This document shows, piece after piece, positions 9,216 through 27,104 of a DNA stretch of 57,965 nucleotides. The stretch comes from Peptostreptococcaceae bacterium (GTDB lineage Bacteria > Bacillota > Clostridia > Peptostreptococcales > BM714), in the NCBI GenBank assembly GCA_016649995.1, contig JAENWJ010000006.1:1-57965 (forward strand). Reading direction: 5' to 3'. Position 1 is the stretch's first letter. Each line of letters begins with the position of its first letter. The notes under the pieces were generated by a model. The model had not been told where the DNA came from. It made no database searches and was given only the letters and a program-made list of their open reading frames with translations. A program made the translations under genes and the position numbers.

Positions 9216-9812
9216 ATGTTTGAAGGCAGAGAGAACCGGTTCAAGGTGATAATTTTTGTATTGATTTTGGCCATGGCGTTTGTTGGCGTATGGGGTTTCA
9301 AAGTGAAGAAGGACAGGGATCTTAAAGTTTTAGAGCAGCTTTCTGAAGTGTCGGAGGCCGAAAAAATTTCGCCCATATCGGAAGAGAAGCAGGAAAGCCC
9401 GGAATTTCTGTATGTAGACATATGCGGAGCTGTTTACGCAGAGGGCTTTTATAAATTGCCTGCCGAAAGTCGTGTCGTAGATGTGGTGGAGATGGCCGGA
9501 GGTCTTTTGGACACGGCCGATATTAAACGGATTAATTTGGCTCAAAAGATTTATGACCAGGAAAAAATAATAATTCCGGAAATTGGAGAAAGCCTTGCAG
9601 TGGAAGAATCGACAGACGGTCTTATCAATATAAATACCGCGGGAAAGACTCTCCTAGAAGAATTGTCTGGCGTAGGACCTGCATATGCCGACCGAATAAT
9701 AGCATACCGACAAAAGAATGGAGGATTTAAAACCAAGGAAGAAATAATGGAAATCAGTGGCATAGGCGAAAAAACCTATGCGAATATAGAAGAATGCATC
9801 TGTATTTATTGA
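9216..9812 (+). CDS. comEA: Competence protein ComEA (DNA receptor)
   Basis: A 198-residue membrane-anchored DNA-binding protein of the type that delivers transforming DNA to the ComEC channel. One transmembrane helix is at about 9-28. An SLBB domain follows (about 68-125, FLYVDICGAVYAEGFYKLP). Two helix-hairpin-helix motifs lie at about 136-195 (INTAGKTLLEELSGVGPAYA and EIMEISGIGEKTYANIEE). The start at 9216 follows CGGAGG. It reads directly into selD, 12 bases downstream. comEC, usually next to comEA, is 14 kb away. Confidence 0.92.
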   Translation: MFEGRENRFKVIIFVLILAMAFVGVWGFKVKKDRDLKVLEQLSEVSEAEKISPISEEKQESPEFLYVDICGAVYAEGFYKLPAESRVVDVVEMAGGLLDTADIKRINLAQKIYDQEKIIIPEIGESLAVEESTDGLININTAGKTLLEELSGVGPAYADRIIAYRQKNGGFKTKEEIMEISGIGEKTYANIEECICIY

Positions 9813-12662: not shown

Positions 12663-14075
12663 GTGAATAAAAATTCATCATTAAGATATCTCCCGAAGGT
12701 TGACGAGCTTTTGGAGGAAAAGGAAATAAGAGAAAAGATTTTGGCAAATCCGAGAATGTTGGTTCTTGAATCCATACGGGAAGCGATTGATGGGGCAAGA
12801 AAGAAAATCCTCACGGGAGAAAATAGGGAGTTAAATCCAATAATTATAAAAGAAGAGATTCTAAGAGATGCATTAGACATATTAAAAATGAAAACTGCTT
12901 ATAATTTGCGTTCCGTCATAAATGCTACGGGGGTCGTGCTTCATACGAACCTTGGAAGGGCGCTTTTAAGCGAATCCGCCGTGGAAAGGATAATTCAGGT
13001 GGCCGGAAATTATTCAACGCTTGAATACGATTTGGAAAGCGGTAAGAGGGGCCTCAGATATAGCCATATAGAAGAGATAATCTGTAAAATTACCGGAGCC
13101 GAAGCTGCTTTTGTAGTAAACAACAACGCGGCAGCTGTTTTGCTTGCCTTGAATACATTGTCAGAAGGAAAAGAAGCCATCGTTTCCCGCGGCCAGCTTG
13201 TGGAAATAGGGGGATCATTTAGAATTCCGGATGTAATGAGGCAGAGCGGAGCTATTCTGAATGAAGTAGGCACCACAAACAAGACCCATCTGAGGGATTA
13301 TAAGGAAAATATAAACGAGAATACGGGAGTGCTTTTAAAGGTTCATACAAGCAACTACAGGATACTCGGGTTTACGCAGGAAGTACCCGGAGTAGAGTTG
13401 GCGGAATTGGGCAGAAAAATGGGCATTCCTCTTTTGGAGGATATAGGAAGCGGAACCCTCATTGATTTTTCCGAACATGGAATGTCGGGAGAACCCACTG
13501 TTCAGGAAGCGGTAAAATATGCCGATGTTGTTACCTTCAGCGGAGACAAGATGCTTGGTGGACCGCAGGCTGGAGTAATAGTTGGCAAGAAGAAGTATCT
13601 TGATGAAATGAAGAAAAATCCTTTTACGAGGGCGTTCAGGGTAGACAAGCTGACAATAGCTGGACTTGAGGCGACATTTAGGCATTATCTGGATCCCGAT
13701 GAGGCACTCGAAAAGGTTCCTACACTTAGGTTCTTGACGGCTTCTGTGGATTGCCTAAAAGATAGGGCGGAAAGACTTGCCGAAAAGATAAAAGCCAACA
13801 CTCGGGGCTTTGAAATCAGTGTTGAAAAAGGAGAATCGCAGGTTGGCGGGGGTTCAATGCCGCTGGAAAAGCTTCCGACCTATGTTGTATCAATTGGCGG
13901 AGGAAATATTTCTGCATCAAAAATTGAAATAGGTTTAAGGAAAAACAATCCGCCGGTAATTGCGAGAATAAACGAGGAAAAGGTTATTTTGGATGTAAGA
14001 ACCATTTTTGACGGACAGCTTGCGGCAATAGCGGAAGCGTTTGGAAAACTGTCGGAGGAGATGAACATACAATGA
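12663..14075 (+). CDS. selA: L-seryl-tRNA(Sec) selenium transferase
   Basis: A 470-residue PLP enzyme that converts Ser-tRNA(Sec) to Sec-tRNA(Sec) with selenophosphate. The PLP lysine is K296 in [13 protein letters not shown], almost the same number as in E. coli. The N-terminal SelA domain ([12 protein letters not shown]) binds the tRNA. The GTG at 12663 is 5 bases after GAGGTGA; an in-frame GTG at 12654 lies inside that site. The stop overlaps the selB start (ATGA), so the pair should be coupled. Confidence 0.96.
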
Positions 14076-15964
14076 AGCATGTGATAATAGGGACAGCCGG
14101 CCACATAGACCATGGAAAGACAACCCTAATAAAGGCTATGACAGGCAGGGATACCGACCGTCTGAAGGAAGAAAAGAAAAGGGGAATTACAATAGAGTTG
14201 GGATTCACTTATTTTGATTTGCCAGGAGGCAAAAGGGCTGGAATAATAGATGTTCCCGGACATGAAAAATTCATAAAGAACATGCTGGCCGGAGTACTAG
14301 GCATGGACATAGTCATTCTTGTTGTCGCTGCCGACGAGGGTATAATGCCTCAAACGAAGGAACACATGGATATTCTCAGCTTCTTGAATATACCGCAAGG
14401 CCTTATAGTACTTACAAAATGCGACATGGCCGATGCCGAATGGATTGAATTGGTGAAGGAGGATATTAAAAGTCGCGTAAAGGGGACTTTCCTTGAAAAT
14501 TCGGAGATTTTAGAAGTGGATTCGGTAAGCGGAAGAGGAATAGAAGGGCTTATTGAAAAGCTTGATGAAATGAGTGAAAAAGTAGGCGAACGGGATTACG
14601 GCAAACCTGCCAGGATTCCAATAGATAGGGTTTTCAGCCTCACAGGCTATGGAACTATCGTGACCGGAACACTTATGGAAGGAACCATAAATAAAGGCGA
14701 TACGCTGGATATTTATCCGAGTATGAGAAAAGCGAAAATAAGGAATATACAGGTTCATGGCGAAGATATGGAAACGGTCTTTGCGGGGCAGAGGGCGGCC
14801 CTTAATATTGCCGGTATCAAGAAAAGTGAATTGAGCAGGGGAGAGGTTATTGCGCAAACCGACTCGATGAAAAATACGATGATGGTTGACGTAGAGCTTT
14901 CGCTTGCAAATGACGAAAAAAGAAGGCTTGAGAACTGGACTAGGCTCAGGCTTTACCACGGATCGGCTGAAATAATGTGCCGATTGGTATTGCTGGACAG
15001 AGAAATACTCGAGCCGGGGGAAACATGCTATGCACAGCTTAGGCTAGAGAAGACACATGCATTTAAATACGGGGATCTTTTTGTCGTCAGGTATTATTCT
15101 CCACTTGAAACGGTGGGTGGTGGAAAAATCATAGATTCCAATCCCGAAAAACATAAAAGGTTTAATAATGAAACACTTGAATCATTGGAATTAAAGAGTG
15201 GAGGCAATAAAAACGAAATCATCGAGCAGCTTGTGAAAAAGGCACCGGAGTATGCCTTAGGTAAGAAGGAAATGCATAGAGCCACTGGGTTCCAGATGGA
15301 AGAGATAGAGGCGGCCTTAAAGGAACTCCTTGATGAGCAGAGCATATATTCTGTGAACGAGGCATACATTCATATGCAAAGTTTCGAGGGGCTAGAGGAA
15401 AAGGCTCTTAAAATTGCAAATGAATATCATATAGGAAATCCGTACAAGAGGGGCGTTCCAAGAGAGGAATTGAAAAATAAACTTTTGAGAGAGCGTGGCG
15501 GTGAGTTTTTCGAGGAATTGCTGAAAAGAATGTCGGACGGGGGATCCCTAATAGTCGAAGGGCATACAGTAAGTCTGAAGAACTTCAAAATAGAGCTGAC
15601 AAACAAGGACATTAAGCTTGCAGGCGAATTGGGAAACTATTATAGCGATGCTGAATTGACCCCTGACAATTTTACACAGATAAAGGAAAGACTGGACATT
15701 GGGAAGAAGGAAATGCCCGTTTTCGAATACTTGCTTCAAGAAGGACGACTTGTAAAAGTTAGTGAAGAATTGTATTATTCCAAGGATTCATATGAAAAGA
15801 TACTGAAAAAAGTGCAGGCAATACTTTCGAAGCAGGGTTTCATTAGCCTTAAAGAGTTCAAGGATGAATTCAATTTGTCGAGAAAATATTCTATAGCCCT
15901 ATTGGAGCATTATGACAACGCTAAAATAACAAAGAGAGACGGAAACAAGAGAATACCTTTTTAA
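14072..15964 (+). CDS. selB: Selenocysteine-specific elongation factor SelB
   Basis: A 630-residue translation factor that carries Sec-tRNA(Sec) to UGA codons with a SECIS hairpin. The EF-Tu-like G domain has [14 protein letters not shown] (7-20), [12 protein letters not shown] and TKCD. Beta-barrel domains follow. The C-terminal third (about 370-630) is the set of winged-helix domains that reads the SECIS RNA. Length is normal. It starts in the last codon of selA and is followed by tRNA-Sec. Confidence 0.96.
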
Positions 15965-16041: not shown

Positions 16042-16139
16042 GGGAGCGGATGGGTGCTGGTGTGCCCTCTGGTCTTCAAAACCAGCTGTGAGGCGTTAGT
16101 AGCGTCTTGGGTGGGTTCGATTCCCACACGGTCCCGCCA
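16042..16139 (+). tRNA. selC: tRNA-Sec (anticodon UCA)
   Basis: A 98-base tRNA with encoded CCA. The anticodon TCA is at 16076-16078 in loop CTTCAAA. The long D stem (GGGTGC/GTGCCC, 6 base pairs, 4-base loop), long variable arm (AGGCG/CGTCT) and T arm (GTGGG-TTCGATT-CCCAC) are those of bacterial tRNA-Sec. The 8-base acceptor arms GGGAGCGG and ACGGTCCC pair except for a G-G and a terminal G-A mismatch. It follows selB directly. Confidence 0.95.
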
Positions 16140-18793: not shown

Positions 18794-20029
18794 TCAGATT
18801 TGTTTTACCTCGAGTTTTTCAAGCTCAAGAGCGATTTTGCTGTACAAGGAATGAATAAGTTCTTCAAATATCACTTCACCGTTTATGATGCCCTGTGCAT
18901 GATGAGCCTTACCGCCGCCCCTGCCATTATATTTTTCGAGCAAATCCTTAAGAACGAGATTTAGATCTAGAGGATTTTCGGAGGGTGATGAGGCCAAAAG
19001 AACGGTTGTGAAATTGGTTGCGGGACAGACAAGAATCAGTATCGCCGATGTATCTCTTTTTAGAACCTTGGATGTCAGAATGCTTGCTTCCTTTATATTG
19101 TCTGTTTCGAAAATATATGAAACAAGGCGATGGTTGTTGTGTACTCGGCTTTTGGCGAACATTTCATCTACCTGATAAGCAAGCAACTTGTCTGTTGTAT
19201 TTTTATACTTGGAGACGATTTCCTTGAAATCTTCCTTCATTCCCTTGCAACGAGCCGGCAAACTATTTTCACTGCAGGATAGATCCGATTTCAGGGTTGA
19301 CAAAACATGGGCTTTTTCGGCATAATCTTTTAAAGCACGGTTTCCGCAGACAAATTCAATACGGAGTCCATCATGGTGAGTGGAGCAATTGGTCATTTTA
19401 ATTATTCCTACCTCTCCCGTACGTTTGGGATGTGTTCCTCCACAGGGCGAGTAGTCGAACTGATCTATTTCAACTATGCGGGGATTCGCATAGCCGGCCA
19501 CATCCTTTCTCAAAGGAAAAGAGGCAAGTTCAGAGGCGTTTGACGGATAATGAGTTTTAACATTTAGACTTCCGAATACTATCTGATTGGAAAAATATTC
19601 GACACGGGCAAGGTCTTTGTGGCATAGCTGCTTGTCGATATCTATTGTAAGATTGTTTTCTGTAAGATGGAAGCCTATTGTTGCAGCCTCGAAAAGTTTT
19701 TCGAAAGAAGCTGAAAGAATATGCTGCCCGAGATGCTGCTGCATGAAATCGAAACGTCTGTTCCAGTCAATCCGGCATGAAATATTCTCGAACTGTTTTG
19801 GAATATCTTCGAGCACATGATAAATTTCGCCGTCTTTTTCAAAGACATTTTTGACGCGAAAGTCTCCTATGAAACCCAAATCACAGGGCTGTCCGCCACC
19901 TTCCGGGTAGAAAGCCGTTTGATTGAGCTTGATATGAACCTCTTTGCCGGGTTTTTGGTCGATTTTCGTTATATTGGCTTTAAATTCCTTTGTATAAGGA
20001 TTTTTATGATATATTTTTATGGCTGCCAT
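18794..20029 (-). CDS. alaX: Alanyl-tRNA editing protein (AlaX-L/DHHA1 type)
   Basis: A 411-residue free-standing editing protein that hydrolyses mischarged Ser- or Gly-tRNA(Ala). The AlaRS-like N-terminal domain has TAFYPEGGGQPCDLG. The zinc site is H99 and H103 (QQHLGQH) with C196 and H200 (CGGTH). The C-terminal DHHA1 domain ends with GRGGGKAHHAQG. ATG 20029 is 8 bases after GAGGAG; another ATG two codons earlier is too close to that site. It diverges from the next gene with only 52 bases between start codons. Confidence 0.92.
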   Translation of the reverse strand: MAAIKIYHKNPYTKEFKANITKIDQKPGKEVHIKLNQTAFYPEGGGQPCDLGFIGDFRVKNVFEKDGEIYHVLEDIPKQFENISCRIDWNRRFDFMQQHLGQHILSASFEKLFEAATIGFHLTENNLTIDIDKQLCHKDLARVEYFSNQIVFGSLNVKTHYPSNASELASFPLRKDVAGYANPRIVEIDQFDYSPCGGTHPKRTGEVGIIKMTNCSTHHDGLRIEFVCGNRALKDYAEKAHVLSTLKSDLSCSENSLPARCKGMKEDFKEIVSKYKNTTDKLLAYQVDEMFAKSRVHNNHRLVSYIFETDNIKEASILTSKVLKRDTSAILILVCPATNFTTVLLASSPSENPLDLNLVLKDLLEKYNGRGGGKAHHAQGIINGEVIFEELIHSLYSKIALELEKLEVKQI

Positions 20030-20081
20030 ATGCATCACTCCTCAAGATAATGATAACACAAACATGGAAAGAGGTGCCACA

Positions 20082-20990
20082 TTGAACTACGATAAATTAG
20101 CAGAAATCGAAGAAAAATTGATTGATGAAGTATACATTTACGGGATTGAAAAAGAAAATAATGAGATGACACATGCACGGGAACTGTATGAGAAAAACAT
20201 AGGGAGCTTGACGGGATTTGACAAGTGGAGCATATTTAATGCAGAATCCGGACAGATGAGAATTTTAGAGATTTACATCAAAAGCCGGCAAGAAATTCCA
20301 GAAGAGAATATGGTCGTGCTAAAGGCATGGATGCGTTCGGAAATGAAGGTTTGCGAAGCAATTGAGACATCTGTCGGTGAATCCATTGCATGCAGAGATA
20401 TAATAAGCGGAGAAAAATTAAACATAGAATCGGGAGGTATGTTAAAAAAAGGAGACATATTCATTGGAAGGGTATTTCTGCTTGATGTGAGCTTTTATGT
20501 AAGCAGGATTTTGTCGGTTTTCGTAGACAGCAAGCTTGCTGAAACGGTGAAAGGCAAATTTAGAGAAGCCTACGAATCATATTGCAACATAAGAGGATAT
20601 GTGACATATGAAAATTATGCCAAAAATAATCAATGGATGTTTTACAAGATGATTGAAATCATCAATAAAATTGAACTGGTGCAGGAAGAAGAAATACTCC
20701 AAGTATATTCGGCTGTTTATATTGTTCCTGATAGGGAACGATTAATGGGGAAAATCAGAAAGACAGATGCATTTATCCCAGACGATGTAGATTCGGGAGT
20801 TGAATATTATCTTCTTATTGAGGGAAACAATTTGCTATGCGAAGTAGAGGTTCATGGGGACCGTATTGTGATTAATGGGAATTCGTTGGATGAACTTAAA
20901 AAATCCCAGGCGAAGGTAGAGGAAATATTTGCCGGCGACATAGTTTTTTCTGAATCACACAATAAAAAATTGGAAGACTTGATTGAATAG
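20082..20990 (+). CDS. Protein of unknown function, 302 residues
   Basis: Not recognised. The start is TTG at 20082 after AGAGGTG, giving (M)NYDKLAEIEEKLIDEVYIYG. The protein is acidic, mainly helical by composition, with no signal peptide and no membrane segment. A hydrophobic stretch (GRVFLLDVSFYVSRILSVF) lies near residues 137-155 but is too polar at its ends for a clear transmembrane helix. No catalytic or metal motif is seen. It begins a run of four same-strand genes ending with a DNA methyltransferase and then comEC-holA. Confidence 0.75.
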   Translation: MNYDKLAEIEEKLIDEVYIYGIEKENNEMTHARELYEKNIGSLTGFDKWSIFNAESGQMRILEIYIKSRQEIPEENMVVLKAWMRSEMKVCEAIETSVGESIACRDIISGEKLNIESGGMLKKGDIFIGRVFLLDVSFYVSRILSVFVDSKLAETVKGKFREAYESYCNIRGYVTYENYAKNNQWMFYKMIEIINKIELVQEEEILQVYSAVYIVPDRERLMGKIRKTDAFIPDDVDSGVEYYLLIEGNNLLCEVEVHGDRIVINGNSLDELKKSQAKVEEIFAGDIVFSESHNKKLEDLIE

Positions 20991-21233: not shown

Positions 21234-21620
21234 ATGGAAGTTCCGTTACTAGATAGTAGCGATGGTGCGAAACCTATTCGATTTGACAAGTTGTTGAAGA
21301 ATATTAAAGAATTGATTAAAAACAACGACAAAATCAAATTGGAAGCGTATATTGAAGAGTTGGAGAACCTTTTAAGTTACGATACCATAAGCTATTATGA
21401 GAAAGAGTCTGAAAAAATACAGCAATTGATAAGGAAACATCCTTATTTCAAAAACCCATGCACATATCCTATCAGATTGCTTACAATTATGAAATACTTG
21501 AAGAAAAAAGGGATTGACACAAGAATTGAAGACATCGATTTGCTTGTGAATCGAACTGTGGAAAACATGGATGGAGTAAGCATGGCCGGTCCCGGAATGT
21601 ATATTGTAAAAAAATCTTAG
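21234..21620 (+). CDS. Protein of unknown function, 128 residues
   Basis: Not recognised. It begins MEVPLLDSSDGAKPIRFDK and is lysine- and glutamate-rich, likely mostly helical (KLLKNIKELIKNNDKIKLEA and a coiled-coil-like stretch after it). AAGGGGAATG precedes the start. No motif gives a function. Its stop codon lies inside a strong terminator-like hairpin, and the methyltransferase follows 42 bases later. Confidence 0.75.
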   Translation: MEVPLLDSSDGAKPIRFDKLLKNIKELIKNNDKIKLEAYIEELENLLSYDTISYYEKESEKIQQLIRKHPYFKNPCTYPIRLLTIMKYLKKKGIDTRIEDIDLLVNRTVENMDGVSMAGPGMYIVKKS

Positions 21621-21645
21621 TATTGCGGTACTAAGATTTTTTATT
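21612..21645 (+). terminator. Terminator or attenuator between the 128-residue gene and the methyltransferase
   Basis: AAATCTTAGTA (21612-21622) pairs perfectly with TACTAAGATTT (21629-21639), loop TTGCGG, followed by TTTATTTG. No promoter is evident between it and the methyltransferase gene, so expression of the latter may depend on read-through. Confidence 0.8.
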
Positions 21646-21662
21646 TGAACGGAGAGATATTT

Positions 21663-23720
21663 ATGGGAAAAGGAGACAGAGATACCATAAAAACATATGA
21701 AGATGTAGGCTTGAGCGCAGAAGCTTCATACATAGGGTCTATCAGAAACCGCTTGCTTGAAAAGTATGGACTCGGCAGAGAAGCTTATCGCGGCTTCATT
21801 TGTAGGCACATCGGAGAGGAATACTCCGAAAAGATGGATCAAACAATGGATCCGGTTATTGAAACATTTGCCGGAGAGGAATATGGAGACGAGTATTTGC
21901 AGGGCTTTTCTCTGCCTGAATATATGGAAGGCTCTTTGCGTGCATCTACGGCGAGTGTATACACGCCTGAGCCTGTTGCGGCCTATCTTGTTGAAAGAGG
22001 CCTTTTTTATGTTCTGGAGGAAAAATTCATAAAAAAAGGTATAGCGAGGCCCGACTGCTTAGGTTTCTATATGGCTTTGGGAATTATACTAAAAGATAAT
22101 CCCGATATGGTAATCCGTACGATGGATATTTCAGCAGGGGCGGGTCTTTTTTTTCTTAAGATGCTTTCTGTGATGGATAAAGCCCTCAGAACATGTATTG
22201 ATTCAGACAAGGAGATAGATGAAATTCTGCTTAAACAGGTCAATGAGGGTTTTTGCGCAAATGATCTGCATAGTGAAGGTCTCGAAATGTTTATTATAGT
22301 ACTTTTAAACCGATTTCTCGGGACGTTTCGCCTAGAAGATATAAATCCGACGATTTACAAGAGGGATGCCATATCGGATTTCGATTTCGGCGATTCATAT
22401 GATTTGCTTTTGGGCAATCCGCCCTACCTGGGAGAAAAAGGAAATAGAGACATTTTTAAAATGGCTAAATCGTCGGATTTCGGGAAGCGTTTCTATGAAG
22501 CCAAAATGGATTATTTTTACTATTTCATTTACAAGGCCGTTGAAATGCTAAGACCGGGCGGCGTCTTGTCCTATGTTACAACGAATTATTTCACCACTGC
22601 GGATGGGGCAAAAAAACTTAGGGCTTTCCTTAGCGAAAACATATCCTTTAGGGAAATATATATGCTTGACGGCGTAAACATTTTCAGTTCCGCAAAGGGG
22701 CAGCATAATATGCTTTTTACTCTTCAAAAGAAACCGGCTTATTCAGATAAAACCGTTTTGAAAAAAGCATCGGGAAATGTAGCTCCTCTGAAGGATGCAA
22801 TGAAAAGTTTTGCTTCGCATGAAATAAGGCAGGAATCCATATATGATATTGACGGAAACATTATATTATATGAAAATTCTTTATACGGAGAAGTGTCGCG
22901 AAGCATCAGAGGCAATGCCGCATGCTCAATTGGAGATGTTTGTCAAGTGAGGCAGGGCCTTGTGTCGGGATGCGACAAGACAAGCAAGCGCAACATAATA
23001 GAAGGCGCGGAAAACATGGGTTTGCGCGAGCCCATTTATGTATTTGATTCACTAGGCGCAGTGCCAGGGCATCTAAAGAGTTCACCATTCCTCAAACCCT
23101 TTTATAAGAATTCGGATATAGGGTGCTATTCACTTAAGGAATCGGAAAAGCTTGTATTGTATGTCACAAATGATAAAATGGAAAAAGAAGGAAAAGCATC
23201 TGGCGAAGCCGTGTTGAAACATTTGAATCCTTACAGGGCGATTCTTTCAAAAAGGCGTGAAGTCATAAATGGGGCGAGGCATTGGTATGAGCTTCAATGG
23301 TATAGAGATGAAGAAATCTTCAATGGTCCCAAAATAATGGTTCCTCACAGAGCCGTTGACAATCGTTTTGTTTACACGGAAAAACCCTGCTACGGAAGTG
23401 CGGATATATATTTCATTCACAGCAAAATGGGAGCAAATCACATGAAGGCAATTTGCTGCATACTGAATTCTAGTGTGGTCTATTTCTGGCTAAAGAACAA
23501 TGGAAAAAGGAAGGGCGGTCAGCTCGAATTGTATCATACGCCGCTGAAACGCATTCCCTTACCAAAGTTGACAGAAAAATCGATTGGAAGGCTTGCTATA
23601 ATGCATGATTGCCGGGATAGAGATGACAGTATAGTTGACGATTTTGTGTACAGCCTTTATGGATTGAGTGTCAAGGAAAAAGAAATGATAAAAGGTTTTA
23701 CTGAAGGAGAAAGACAGTAA
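21663..23720 (+). CDS. Orphan N6-adenine DNA methyltransferase (Eco57I/CamA-like)
   Basis: A 685-residue adenine methyltransferase with a target-recognition tail. The SAM motif is DISAGAGLFF (155-164) and the catalytic motif IV is NPPY (252-255). Before these comes the YTPEPVAAYLV block of type I/IIG enzymes. The C-terminal part (about 390-660) is a TaqI-like specificity domain (GLVSGCDK, RHWYELQW, PKIMVPH, ADIYF, ILNSSV). This order matches CamA, the orphan methyltransferase of Clostridioides difficile, though CamA is shorter. The N-terminus shows no PD-(D/E)xK nuclease motif, and no restriction gene is nearby. ATG 21663 follows GGAGAG. comEC starts 29 bases downstream. Confidence 0.88.
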   Translation: MGKGDRDTIKTYEDVGLSAEASYIGSIRNRLLEKYGLGREAYRGFICRHIGEEYSEKMDQTMDPVIETFAGEEYGDEYLQGFSLPEYMEGSLRASTASVYTPEPVAAYLVERGLFYVLEEKFIKKGIARPDCLGFYMALGIILKDNPDMVIRTMDISAGAGLFFLKMLSVMDKALRTCIDSDKEIDEILLKQVNEGFCANDLHSEGLEMFIIVLLNRFLGTFRLEDINPTIYKRDAISDFDFGDSYDLLLGNPPYLGEKGNRDIFKMAKSSDFGKRFYEAKMDYFYYFIYKAVEMLRPGGVLSYVTTNYFTTADGAKKLRAFLSENISFREIYMLDGVNIFSSAKGQHNMLFTLQKKPAYSDKTVLKKASGNVAPLKDAMKSFASHEIRQESIYDIDGNIILYENSLYGEVSRSIRGNAACSIGDVCQVRQGLVSGCDKTSKRNIIEGAENMGLREPIYVFDSLGAVPGHLKSSPFLKPFYKNSDIGCYSLKESEKLVLYVTNDKMEKEGKASGEAVLKHLNPYRAILSKRREVINGARHWYELQWYRDEEIFNGPKIMVPHRAVDNRFVYTEKPCYGSADIYFIHSKMGANHMKAICCILNSSVVYFWLKNNGKRKGGQLELYHTPLKRIPLPKLTEKSIGRLAIMHDCRDRDDSIVDDFVYSLYGLSVKEKEMIKGFTEGERQ

Positions 23721-23749
23721 TCATGGAATATTAAATGCGAGGTGGCGTC

Positions 23750-26077
23750 TTGAGAAGACCCTTGGCTTTATTTTTGGTTTCATATTTTATTGGTATGATG
23801 GTTTTGTTTGACAGCCCTTTTATGTTCATTGGTGGAATCTGCCTGTGGATTGTAGCTATTTTGTTTATTTTTGAATGGTCGGAAGAAACCCTTAAACGCC
23901 TTGTGATTGTTTTTTTTGGTGTGGTGATTGGAATGGGACTGACATTCTACTCATCAGATTATATGCAAACACAAACTTTTGAAGAAGGAAACGTAGAGGT
24001 TTATGGATATGCATACGGACCTGAATACGGAAACGCAGGCAAACTTGTACTGAAAGTTAAAAAGATCAAAGGAAAAGAAGGCTATAGCACAGCCAATGCA
24101 AAGATATTGATTCTTTCGGATAAGGATATCTCAAAATATCGACATACATATATAAAGTATAGTGGAGTGCTGATTAATGAAAGCAAACCCAAAAATCCCA
24201 ATGCTTTTAACTATAGCAAATACGGATTAATAAAAGGCTATGACAAGGTAAGCTTTTTTGACGGCAAGGCTGCTATTGTAGAAATTGAAGCTAAAAAATA
24301 TTTTGATCCGGTAATTATAAAGGATAAAATTCTTATAAAAAGTGAAAGAATCTTAGAAAAAAATAGCCAAGCATATTTTGCATCTCTTGTTTTTGGAGAT
24401 ACAAGCCTTTTAGGCGAAGAAAAGACCATGCAAATAGGCATGTCGGGGCTTTCACATCTTTTTGCCGTTTCAGGATTGCACATTGCAGTTTTATTCGGGT
24501 TCTTGACTGCGCTGTCAAATCTTTTTTACAGGAAGAGCCATTGGATAAAATCCATTGTGATTCTATCAACGGTATTTCTTTTTGTTTCAATAATAGGATT
24601 TCCTGTTTCTGCAATAAGAGCCTTTGTATTTATTTCTATATATTCATTGGCGGGAATAGCTAGACGAAAATACGATTTGTTGAATGTACTGTTGTTATCT
24701 GCGGCAATAATACTTTTATGGAATCCGTATCAGCTTTTTTCAGCGGGATTCCAACTATCGTTTGGAGCCGTAGCATCAATATATTTCATTTATCCGGCTT
24801 TAAGTGAATGGATACATCCAAAAAATATTGCTGTAAAGGCTTTGATGATATCGTTATCTGTTCAAGTTGGGATAGCCCCTGTGCTTATTTATCATTTTAA
24901 TTATTTGTCTATAATTTCGATAATCGCCAATGTTCCAGCTGTATTATTGTTTGGAACATGGTTGCCGATTCTCTATATTTTCGCGATTGCAAATATTCTA
25001 TCGATTCCTTTACTTCCGCAGGTTCTTGCCTTTCCGGTTGAATGGGGTACGAATGCTTTGGACTGGTTGTCAAAGGCTGCATCAGGATTTTCTTGGTCAT
25101 ATATTGAATTGCCTTTTGTCGGTTACAAGTTTATCGGACTCTATTACTGTGTATGCACATTGTTTGTGTTACAATCTAGAAAAGATTATTTTTTGCGGGT
25201 AGATAAAATGAAAAAGACTGTGGCGGCTATATTGGTTGCAATAGCAGTTGCAACAATTCCGGCTATTGCGAATGTAGATAATCAAATAGAAATAATATTT
25301 TTTGATGTTGGGCAGGGCGATTGCGTCTTTGTAAGAACTGCCAACGGAAGGAATATTCTGATTGACAGTGGAACGGAGGATATTGATATTTCCGAAATAT
25401 TAATGAGGAATGGAATTAAGAGGATAGATTTGGCGATTCTTACCCACTTTCATGAAGACCATTACGGAGGACTATTTGAGCTCGCCGAAAAGGGTCGAAT
25501 AGATACACTGCTGATGAAGGAAACGCTTTATGAGAATGGAGACGTAAAGCAAGCATTGGAAACTAAAATGCGGTATGCTGAAAAAACCGTAATATATACC
25601 AAATCCGGACAGTCACTTGAAATTGACGGTCTGTCAATGCAGATTTTGAATGTGGGCAAAAATTACGAAGGATTGAGTTCCCATTCCGCAGAAAACAACG
25701 ATTCAATAGTTGTTTTGTTGGATTATAGAGATTTTGAGATGCTTCTTGTTGGGGATATAGAAGAGAAGGCGGAGAAGAGCCTGTCTTTGGAAAATCCAGT
25801 CGATATTGACCTGATAAAGGCAAGTCACCATGGAAGCAAAACCTCGAACATAGATAGTTTTTTGGAAGCATACAAACCCGAAGTTGTCGTGGTGCAGGTC
25901 GGAAAAAATATTTTCGGACATCCGGCACCTTCTGTGATTGAAAGGTATGAAAGCTTTGATATGGATGTATACCGCACCGACAAAGACGGTGCAGTAATAA
26001 TCAAAACGAATGGTTTGAGAGAGTTTATTGTGGAAAGCAATTTTTCAAACAGGAGTGAATCATATGGACTTGAATAA
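23750..26077 (+). CDS. comEC: DNA uptake channel ComEC/Rec2
   Basis: A 775-residue competence protein that carries single-stranded DNA across the membrane. N-terminal membrane helices and a DUF4131-like soluble loop (about 40-200) are followed by the multi-helix Competence domain (about 220-480; GLSHLFAVSGLHIAVLFGF). A C-terminal metallo-beta-lactamase domain starts near 510 (FFDVGQGDCVFV, ILTHFHEDHYGG, KASHHGSKTS). The start is TTG at 23750 after GAGGTG; an upstream ATG at 23735 lacks a site. The end overlaps holA. Confidence 0.95.
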   Translation: MRRPLALFLVSYFIGMMVLFDSPFMFIGGICLWIVAILFIFEWSEETLKRLVIVFFGVVIGMGLTFYSSDYMQTQTFEEGNVEVYGYAYGPEYGNAGKLVLKVKKIKGKEGYSTANAKILILSDKDISKYRHTYIKYSGVLINESKPKNPNAFNYSKYGLIKGYDKVSFFDGKAAIVEIEAKKYFDPVIIKDKILIKSERILEKNSQAYFASLVFGDTSLLGEEKTMQIGMSGLSHLFAVSGLHIAVLFGFLTALSNLFYRKSHWIKSIVILSTVFLFVSIIGFPVSAIRAFVFISIYSLAGIARRKYDLLNVLLLSAAIILLWNPYQLFSAGFQLSFGAVASIYFIYPALSEWIHPKNIAVKALMISLSVQVGIAPVLIYHFNYLSIISIIANVPAVLLFGTWLPILYIFAIANILSIPLLPQVLAFPVEWGTNALDWLSKAASGFSWSYIELPFVGYKFIGLYYCVCTLFVLQSRKDYFLRVDKMKKTVAAILVAIAVATIPAIANVDNQIEIIFFDVGQGDCVFVRTANGRNILIDSGTEDIDISEILMRNGIKRIDLAILTHFHEDHYGGLFELAEKGRIDTLLMKETLYENGDVKQALETKMRYAEKTVIYTKSGQSLEIDGLSMQILNVGKNYEGLSSHSAENNDSIVVLLDYRDFEMLLVGDIEEKAEKSLSLENPVDIDLIKASHHGSKTSNIDSFLEAYKPEVVVVQVGKNIFGHPAPSVIERYESFDMDVYRTDKDGAVIIKTNGLREFIVESNFSNRSESYGLE

Positions 26078-27104
26078 GCTAATGGAATTGCCTGCAAATA
26101 TAGGGCAGAGGGTTTTCTTTGTTGATGGTGAGGAAAAATATATTGCAGATAGATTTGTTGAGTATATGAAAAAAAAGCATCTTAAAGGATGCGTCGAGGA
26201 AATGAATCTTCATAAGATTGAGCAGATTTCCGACTTGAAGGATATAGAGGAAAAGATAGTTACGCTGCCGTTCATGTGCGATGCGAGGATGGTTGTTGTT
26301 TCTGATTTTATCAAAATTGCTGCTGAAATGCTTAAGAGCAAGGAAGAACTGGATTCTTTTATTGGTAAAGTGCCTGAAACGACAGTATTGGTTTTGTTGA
26401 ATGGACGCGTCGACAAAAGGAGCATCGTCTATAAATTTTTTAAAAAGAAGAAATTAATTGTCGAAGCTAAGAGACTCACCCCGGAATCATATGAGGCGTG
26501 GGTTGAGGATTTTATTATAACGCGCGGGGTTTCAATTACAAAGGTTGACAAAAAATATCTGACTCAACAATTGGGATATTTTAACAAAGAAAGACCGAAA
26601 AATATGTACGATTCCGAAAGCGAGCTCAAGAAACTGCTTGGAAGCCTAAATGGGAGGGGAACCATAGAAAGAAAGGATTTTGAAGGTTTTTTGGATACCA
26701 GAGGCGAGACTAATATTTTTAAGCTGACTGACAGTATTTCTGAAGCTCATACGGCATTGGCCCTCGAAAGCCTTGAGATATTATGTGAAATGGGAGAGCC
26801 GGAAATTAAAATTTTATTCATGATTAGCCGCCATTTTAGACAGATAATGAAGGTTAAGAGTTTGCAAAGCGGTGGCTGTTCTAAGGAAGAAACTATGAAA
26901 ACCCTTGGAATAAAGAGTGATTTTGTTTTTAAAAAAAACTTAAGATACGCAAGAGGATTGGAAATGGCCGCAATCGGAAGGATAATGGAATTATGTATGG
27001 AAACGGAATTGAAATGCAAATCGCTGTCAAGCCAGAAGCGCTTGGCAATAGAAGTTTTGATTTGCCAAATAAGCGGCGTCATAATTGATGGGAAACAAAG
27101 ATAG
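26064..27104 (+). CDS. holA: DNA polymerase III delta subunit
   Basis: A 346-residue HolA (YqeN), the clamp-loader subunit that opens the beta ring. The start ATG at 26064 follows AGGAGTG and lies inside the comEC end. The N-terminal AAA+ fold lacks a Walker A, as expected for delta; the LTPESYEAWVEDFI, LGSLNGRGTI and ILFMISRHFRQIM segments are typical. Position after comEC is conserved in Firmicutes. Confidence 0.9.
   Translation: MDLNKLMELPANIGQRVFFVDGEEKYIADRFVEYMKKKHLKGCVEEMNLHKIEQISDLKDIEEKIVTLPFMCDARMVVVSDFIKIAAEMLKSKEELDSFIGKVPETTVLVLLNGRVDKRSIVYKFFKKKKLIVEAKRLTPESYEAWVEDFIITRGVSITKVDKKYLTQQLGYFNKERPKNMYDSESELKKLLGSLNGRGTIERKDFEGFLDTRGETNIFKLTDSISEAHTALALESLEILCEMGEPEIKILFMISRHFRQIMKVKSLQSGGCSKEETMKTLGIKSDFVFKKNLRYARGLEMAAIGRIMELCMETELKCKSLSSQKRLAIEVLICQISGVIIDGKQR

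Follow-up and report, generated by a model that had tools for sequence, protein, structure and literature searches.

A putative solitary adenine methyltransferase lineage, sister to CamA, in the comEC-holA region of Peptostreptococcales genomes

The gene directly upstream of comEC and holA in the window (the whole stretch of DNA analysed here, 57,965 nucleotides of a Peptostreptococcaceae genome) is probably best read as that of a solitary gamma-class N6-adenine methyltransferase, descended mostly vertically, fixed in the comEC-holA block, belonging to a sister lineage of CamA and placing its methyl mark at a motif close to CAAAAA. The family of the protein is clear, no nuclease is fused or adjacent to it, synteny and near-invariant recognition residues are maintained under purifying selection, and its occurrence is independent of comEC presence and of sporulation. 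The features of the locus, in window positions, are as follows.

20019-20990, + strand: u323, uncharacterised protein, conserved as a neighbour in 45 of the compared loci
21234-21620, + strand: u128, small conserved protein whose C-terminal half is predicted to be winged-helix-like
21609-21642, + strand: AT-rich hairpin with a T-rich tail, terminator- or attenuator-like, between u128 and the methyltransferase gene
21663-23720, + strand: predicted gamma-class N6-adenine DNA methyltransferase, 685 residues, window-type sister of CamA (Pfam domains, motifs, tree and fold)
22416-22427, + strand: catalytic NPPY motif of the methyltransferase, residues 252-255
22434-22439, + strand: E258-K259 of the methyltransferase, equivalent of CamA H171-K172 (minor-groove contacts)
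23256-23306, + strand: RRE...WYELQW.R recognition segment of the methyltransferase, in which R532, Q545, W546 and R548 correspond to CamA R425, Q438, W439 and R441
23750-26077, + strand: comEC, channel for DNA uptake, carrying Competence core and metallo-beta-lactamase (MBL) domains, its TTG start conserved in the sister genome G001
26064-27104, + strand: holA, delta subunit of DNA polymerase III, its first 14 bases shared with comEC

Gene and protein

The open reading frame spans 21645-23720, with a likely ATG start at 21663 that gives 685 residues and a stop codon at 23718-23720. Pfam matches to Eco57I (7.6e-19) and TaqI_C (2.1e-10) were detected, and motif X (near residues 96-106) and motif I (DISAGAG, residues 155-161) are followed by NPPY and then by the TaqI-like recognition domain, as is characteristic of gamma-class N6-adenine enzymes. 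Domains and coordinates agree with the first-pass annotation, which had described a 685-residue methyltransferase with NPPY and a TaqI-like tail 29 bases upstream of a comEC gene that overlaps holA.

No nuclease was recognised fused to the methyltransferase or among its neighbours in the locus, and a family search of the genome found this gene as its sole Eco57I-family match. With respect to fused and adjacent genes the enzyme is an orphan, and the earlier description of an orphan, CamA-like protein with no nuclease in sight holds, CamA being its best match in both sequence and fold. The N-terminus preceding motif X consists of about 95 residues, mostly helical in the AlphaFold model; judged from this model, it falls short of the length of a typical type IIG nuclease domain, and the N-terminal nuclease domain of type IIG restriction enzymes is absent. 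Spo0F matches (E about 4e-4) were judged spurious because they cover the region around motif I.

The gene is single-copy in most of the genomes that carry it. Between two genomes of the genus, pN was 0.175 against a pS of 0.80 over 201 methyltransferase codons, with synonymous sites saturated, and holA gave a similar pN of 0.187 in the same pair. By these values the methyltransferase, like holA, is under purifying selection.

Phylogenetic position

Among proteins of solved structure, the best sequence match was to CamA chains (1.9e-28). The 33 best PDB fold matches of the AlphaFold model (pLDDT 85.6) are all CamA, with a TM of about 0.82 over CamA, and M.BseCI comes next. In the methyltransferase trees, the CamA-type clade (support 99) and the window-type clade (support 100) are sisters, and the enzyme studied here lies outside the former, in the latter; these were quick trees with some long branches and an outgroup that is not one group, so the placement of single rows is approximate. 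Sequence comparison thus places it as a conserved solitary methyltransferase of a new sister lineage of the CamA kind.

The CamA-type clade takes in proteins from across the class. In class-level genomes (L162-L179), CamA-type proteins occur in many families and keep nearly all CamA base contacts. This is at odds with the published view of CamA as specific to C. difficile and rare elsewhere, and suggests that CamA is one member of a large, class-wide family of solitary methyltransferases.

Recognition residues

The base contacts of the CamA-DNA complex (PMC8187626) served as reference for 15 contact residues. Nine are identical in the window enzyme (K259, Q431, R532, Q545, W546, R548, S579, A580, Y624), three are conservative (V434, R563, L621) and three differ (E258, H562, G618), which means that the full CamA set is absent. 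The four CamA residues matched by the recognition segment contact C1:G1 to A3:T3 (PMC8187626). Position 258, occupied by E here, holds H in the CamA clade, with S in two members.

Across 54 syntenic orthologues the contact columns were 0.93 identical, whereas all columns averaged 0.38 and those of the recognition domain 0.41, and none of 100000 random column sets was as conserved. Few of these residues are present in remote Eco57I enzymes. Such near-invariance suggests that the target is fixed and close to CAAAAA, a motif read from CamA at about 22-25% identity and with three of 15 contacts clearly different. The solitary enzymes of the window-type clade thus probably share one motif, near but possibly not identical to CAAAAA. 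A methylome search around Alkaliphilus returned no motif for this methyltransferase family.

Distribution and gene order

Among 297 genomes of the order, 75 carry the window type, 65 the CamA type and none both, the two types being split by E-value bands with residues checked on an aligned subset. On the methyltransferase tree, nine families require 9 label changes, where the minimum is 8 and the shuffled mean 44; this points to largely vertical inheritance of the window type, along family boundaries within the order.

The first-pass annotation had proposed surveying genomes for methyltransferase-comEC neighbours, and the placement proved not to be random. In 55 genomes (44 fetched loci and 11 read by coordinates) of six families, which we label f1, f2, f3, f5, f6 and f12, the two genes share a strand and lie within 10 kb of each other, and such linkage is not chance. 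The old block reads alaX-u323-u128-methyltransferase-variable genes-comEC-holA-rpsT-(gpr)-lepA-hemW; f3 and f5 lack u128, f5 also lacks u323, and the gpr-like (germination protease) gene is present in spore-forming families. Direct contact with comEC is confined to f1, the genus of the window, and part of f2, and elsewhere 1-10 genes intervene. In f4 and f10 the window-type gene is far from comEC, standing beside ligA-gatCAB in three f4 genomes, and the CamA gene of the C. difficile-like type is near ptsH-ptsI (the ligA-gatCAB and ptsH-ptsI names are given by sequence resemblance, not by family search). For the contact with comEC in this genus, the simplest account is inherited synteny, tightened when a small genome lost the genes in between. 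A literature search for a methyltransferase beside comEC-holA returned nothing relevant.

Some further variation was seen in these families. In f3 and f5 loci (such as L053, L055 and L067), ComEC has about 500 residues and apparently lacks the C-terminal MBL domain; a free-standing ComEC-C-like MBL gene is found next to the methyltransferase gene, on the opposite strand, in f3 and in part of the f5 loci. In f4 genomes (L097-L102), CamA-type genes lie 5' of ptsH and ptsI, mostly with a patatin-like gene between.

Neighbouring genes

The TTG start of comEC at 23750 is preceded by GAGGTGG and shared with G001, which does not conserve the ATG at 23735; the gap between the methyltransferase and comEC is therefore 29 bases. 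The ATG start of holA at 26064 is preceded by AGGAG. In G001, the one congener compared, the order methyltransferase-comEC-holA is repeated, with the contig end cutting the methyltransferase gene. From this spacing, co-transcription of the three genes is plausible in the genus. The hairpin upstream has a folding energy of -14.4 kcal/mol (z -3.2).

Neither u128 nor u323 matched anything in Pfam, NCBIfam or PADLOC. The C-terminal stretch of u128, about 66 residues, is highly conserved and modelled as winged-helix-like, but the fold search gave weak winged-helix matches only (best E 0.2), and no function is claimed for it on that account. The gene lies 5' of the methyltransferase or comEC in f1, f2, f6 and f12, and 5' of comEC without the methyltransferase in f9 and three f11 genomes, which makes its tie to comEC older or broader than that of the methyltransferase.

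Elsewhere in the window, a tRNA-Sec gene (16042-16139) is located just 3' of a SelB-like GTPase gene (14072-15964), suggesting that the organism makes selenoproteins.

Possible roles

The first-pass annotation saw methylation and uptake as one system, in which the enzyme, co-expressed with ComEC, would methylate imported DNA as DpnA does or mark self DNA in transformation. Adjacency and probable co-transcription with comEC here and in part of f2, and the same-strand linkage in 55 genomes, speak for such a coupling; a ComEA-like gene at 9618 in the window and PilB/ComGA-like ATPase matches in the genome indicate that transformation itself may well be possible. The comparative data run against it. 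Other genes, 1 to 10 of them, stand between the two in most families, and f4 and f10 relatives hold the methyltransferase at a distance. The comEC core was found in 286 of the 297 genomes, about 150 of which keep it without either methyltransferase type; uptake thus does not need the methyltransferase, and the two are not coupled. The DpnA-like variant fares no better, as the DpnII-like nuclease from which incoming DNA would need protection is missing beside the gene, and CamA, the nearest enzyme to have been characterised, shows no activity on single-stranded DNA and contacts both strands (PMC8187626) through residues that are conserved here. Coupling to uptake is for these reasons improbable, although the retention near comEC in six families could reflect some functional tie.

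A sporulation role would follow from the closest characterised enzyme, since CamA is a sporulation regulator of C. difficile, and from the gpr-like gene in the same block of spore-forming families. Yet spoIVA is absent from 44 of the 75 carriers, including all those of f1, f2 and f5, among them G001 and the 100%-complete genome of the window (G000), and the recognition residues are still conserved in these carriers. Control of sporulation cannot then be the general role of the methyltransferase, as an extension from CamA would have it; for this genome it is refuted if the absence of spoIVA is real, and we regard it as very improbable indeed.

A restriction-related history is somewhat easier to entertain, though still unlikely: the enzyme could be a remnant of type IIG enzymes or an antidote to them, immunising the chromosome against those that share its recognition domain. 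Four long homologues of 794-1238 residues (L087, L090, L160, L161) group within or next to the window-type clade, and the recognition residues of that clade are found in three of them, so that such a history is possible and there may be type IIG enzymes that act on an identical target. An N-terminal VIELK stretch in L087 resembles a PD-(D/E)XK nuclease and is maybe a nuclease motif. Enzymes of type IIG size are, however, sporadic (G003, G025, G126, G431, G456), the genome of the window has no second Eco57I-family gene, and near-invariant specificity with family-wise descent fits housekeeping better than an arms race.

The favoured reading is that of a resident methyltransferase. The gene is a fixed member of the chromosomal block around comEC-holA and has been inherited largely vertically within the order. 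By homology, its motif would be an asymmetric, double-stranded six-base sequence close to CAAAAA, in which C1-A2-A3 would be read as by CamA and positions 4-5 perhaps differently, and with the last A methylated genome-wide. Homology, conservation and distribution point to methyltransferase activity, to this motif and to a housekeeping or regulatory epigenetic mark. In this small genome, loss of intervening genes would have brought the gene into direct contact with comEC and placed it on one likely transcript with comEC-holA. A more elaborate form, in which the order-wide, vertically inherited, sporulation-independent mark near CAAAAA might be read or answered by the neighbour u128, which would control the comEC-holA region, is a doubtful addition.

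In proteobacteria, Dam and CcrM serve general functions. A sister lineage of CamA that has settled in a single chromosomal block in one order, with a single recognition surface even in non-spore-formers, would make a comparable, conserved clostridial methyl mark with a non-sporulation role testable.

Comparison with known enzymes

M.BseCI, which belongs to a type II restriction system, is also a gamma-class N6-adenine methyltransferase; as the next fold match (PDB 7qw5) it gave a TM of about 0.76 over the target, and the structurally aligned residues were 15-16% identical. Pneumococcal DpnA, from the DpnII system, is likewise an adenine methyltransferase; it is encoded beside a nuclease, induced in competence and active on single-stranded DNA (PMC3573125). 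No nuclease of shared specificity was seen beside the gene of the window enzyme, and the link of this enzyme to uptake was an idea of the first-pass annotation.

With CamA (PDB 7lni, 7lt5) the window enzyme shares fold and domain order, and both are solitary, without a nuclease. The helical N-terminus is about 70 residues longer in the window enzyme, and the contacts at four positions are E/V/H-R where CamA has H/I/Y-K. Its gene lies 5' of comEC-holA and that of CamA near ptsH-ptsI; unlike CamA, the window type is also found in non-spore-formers.
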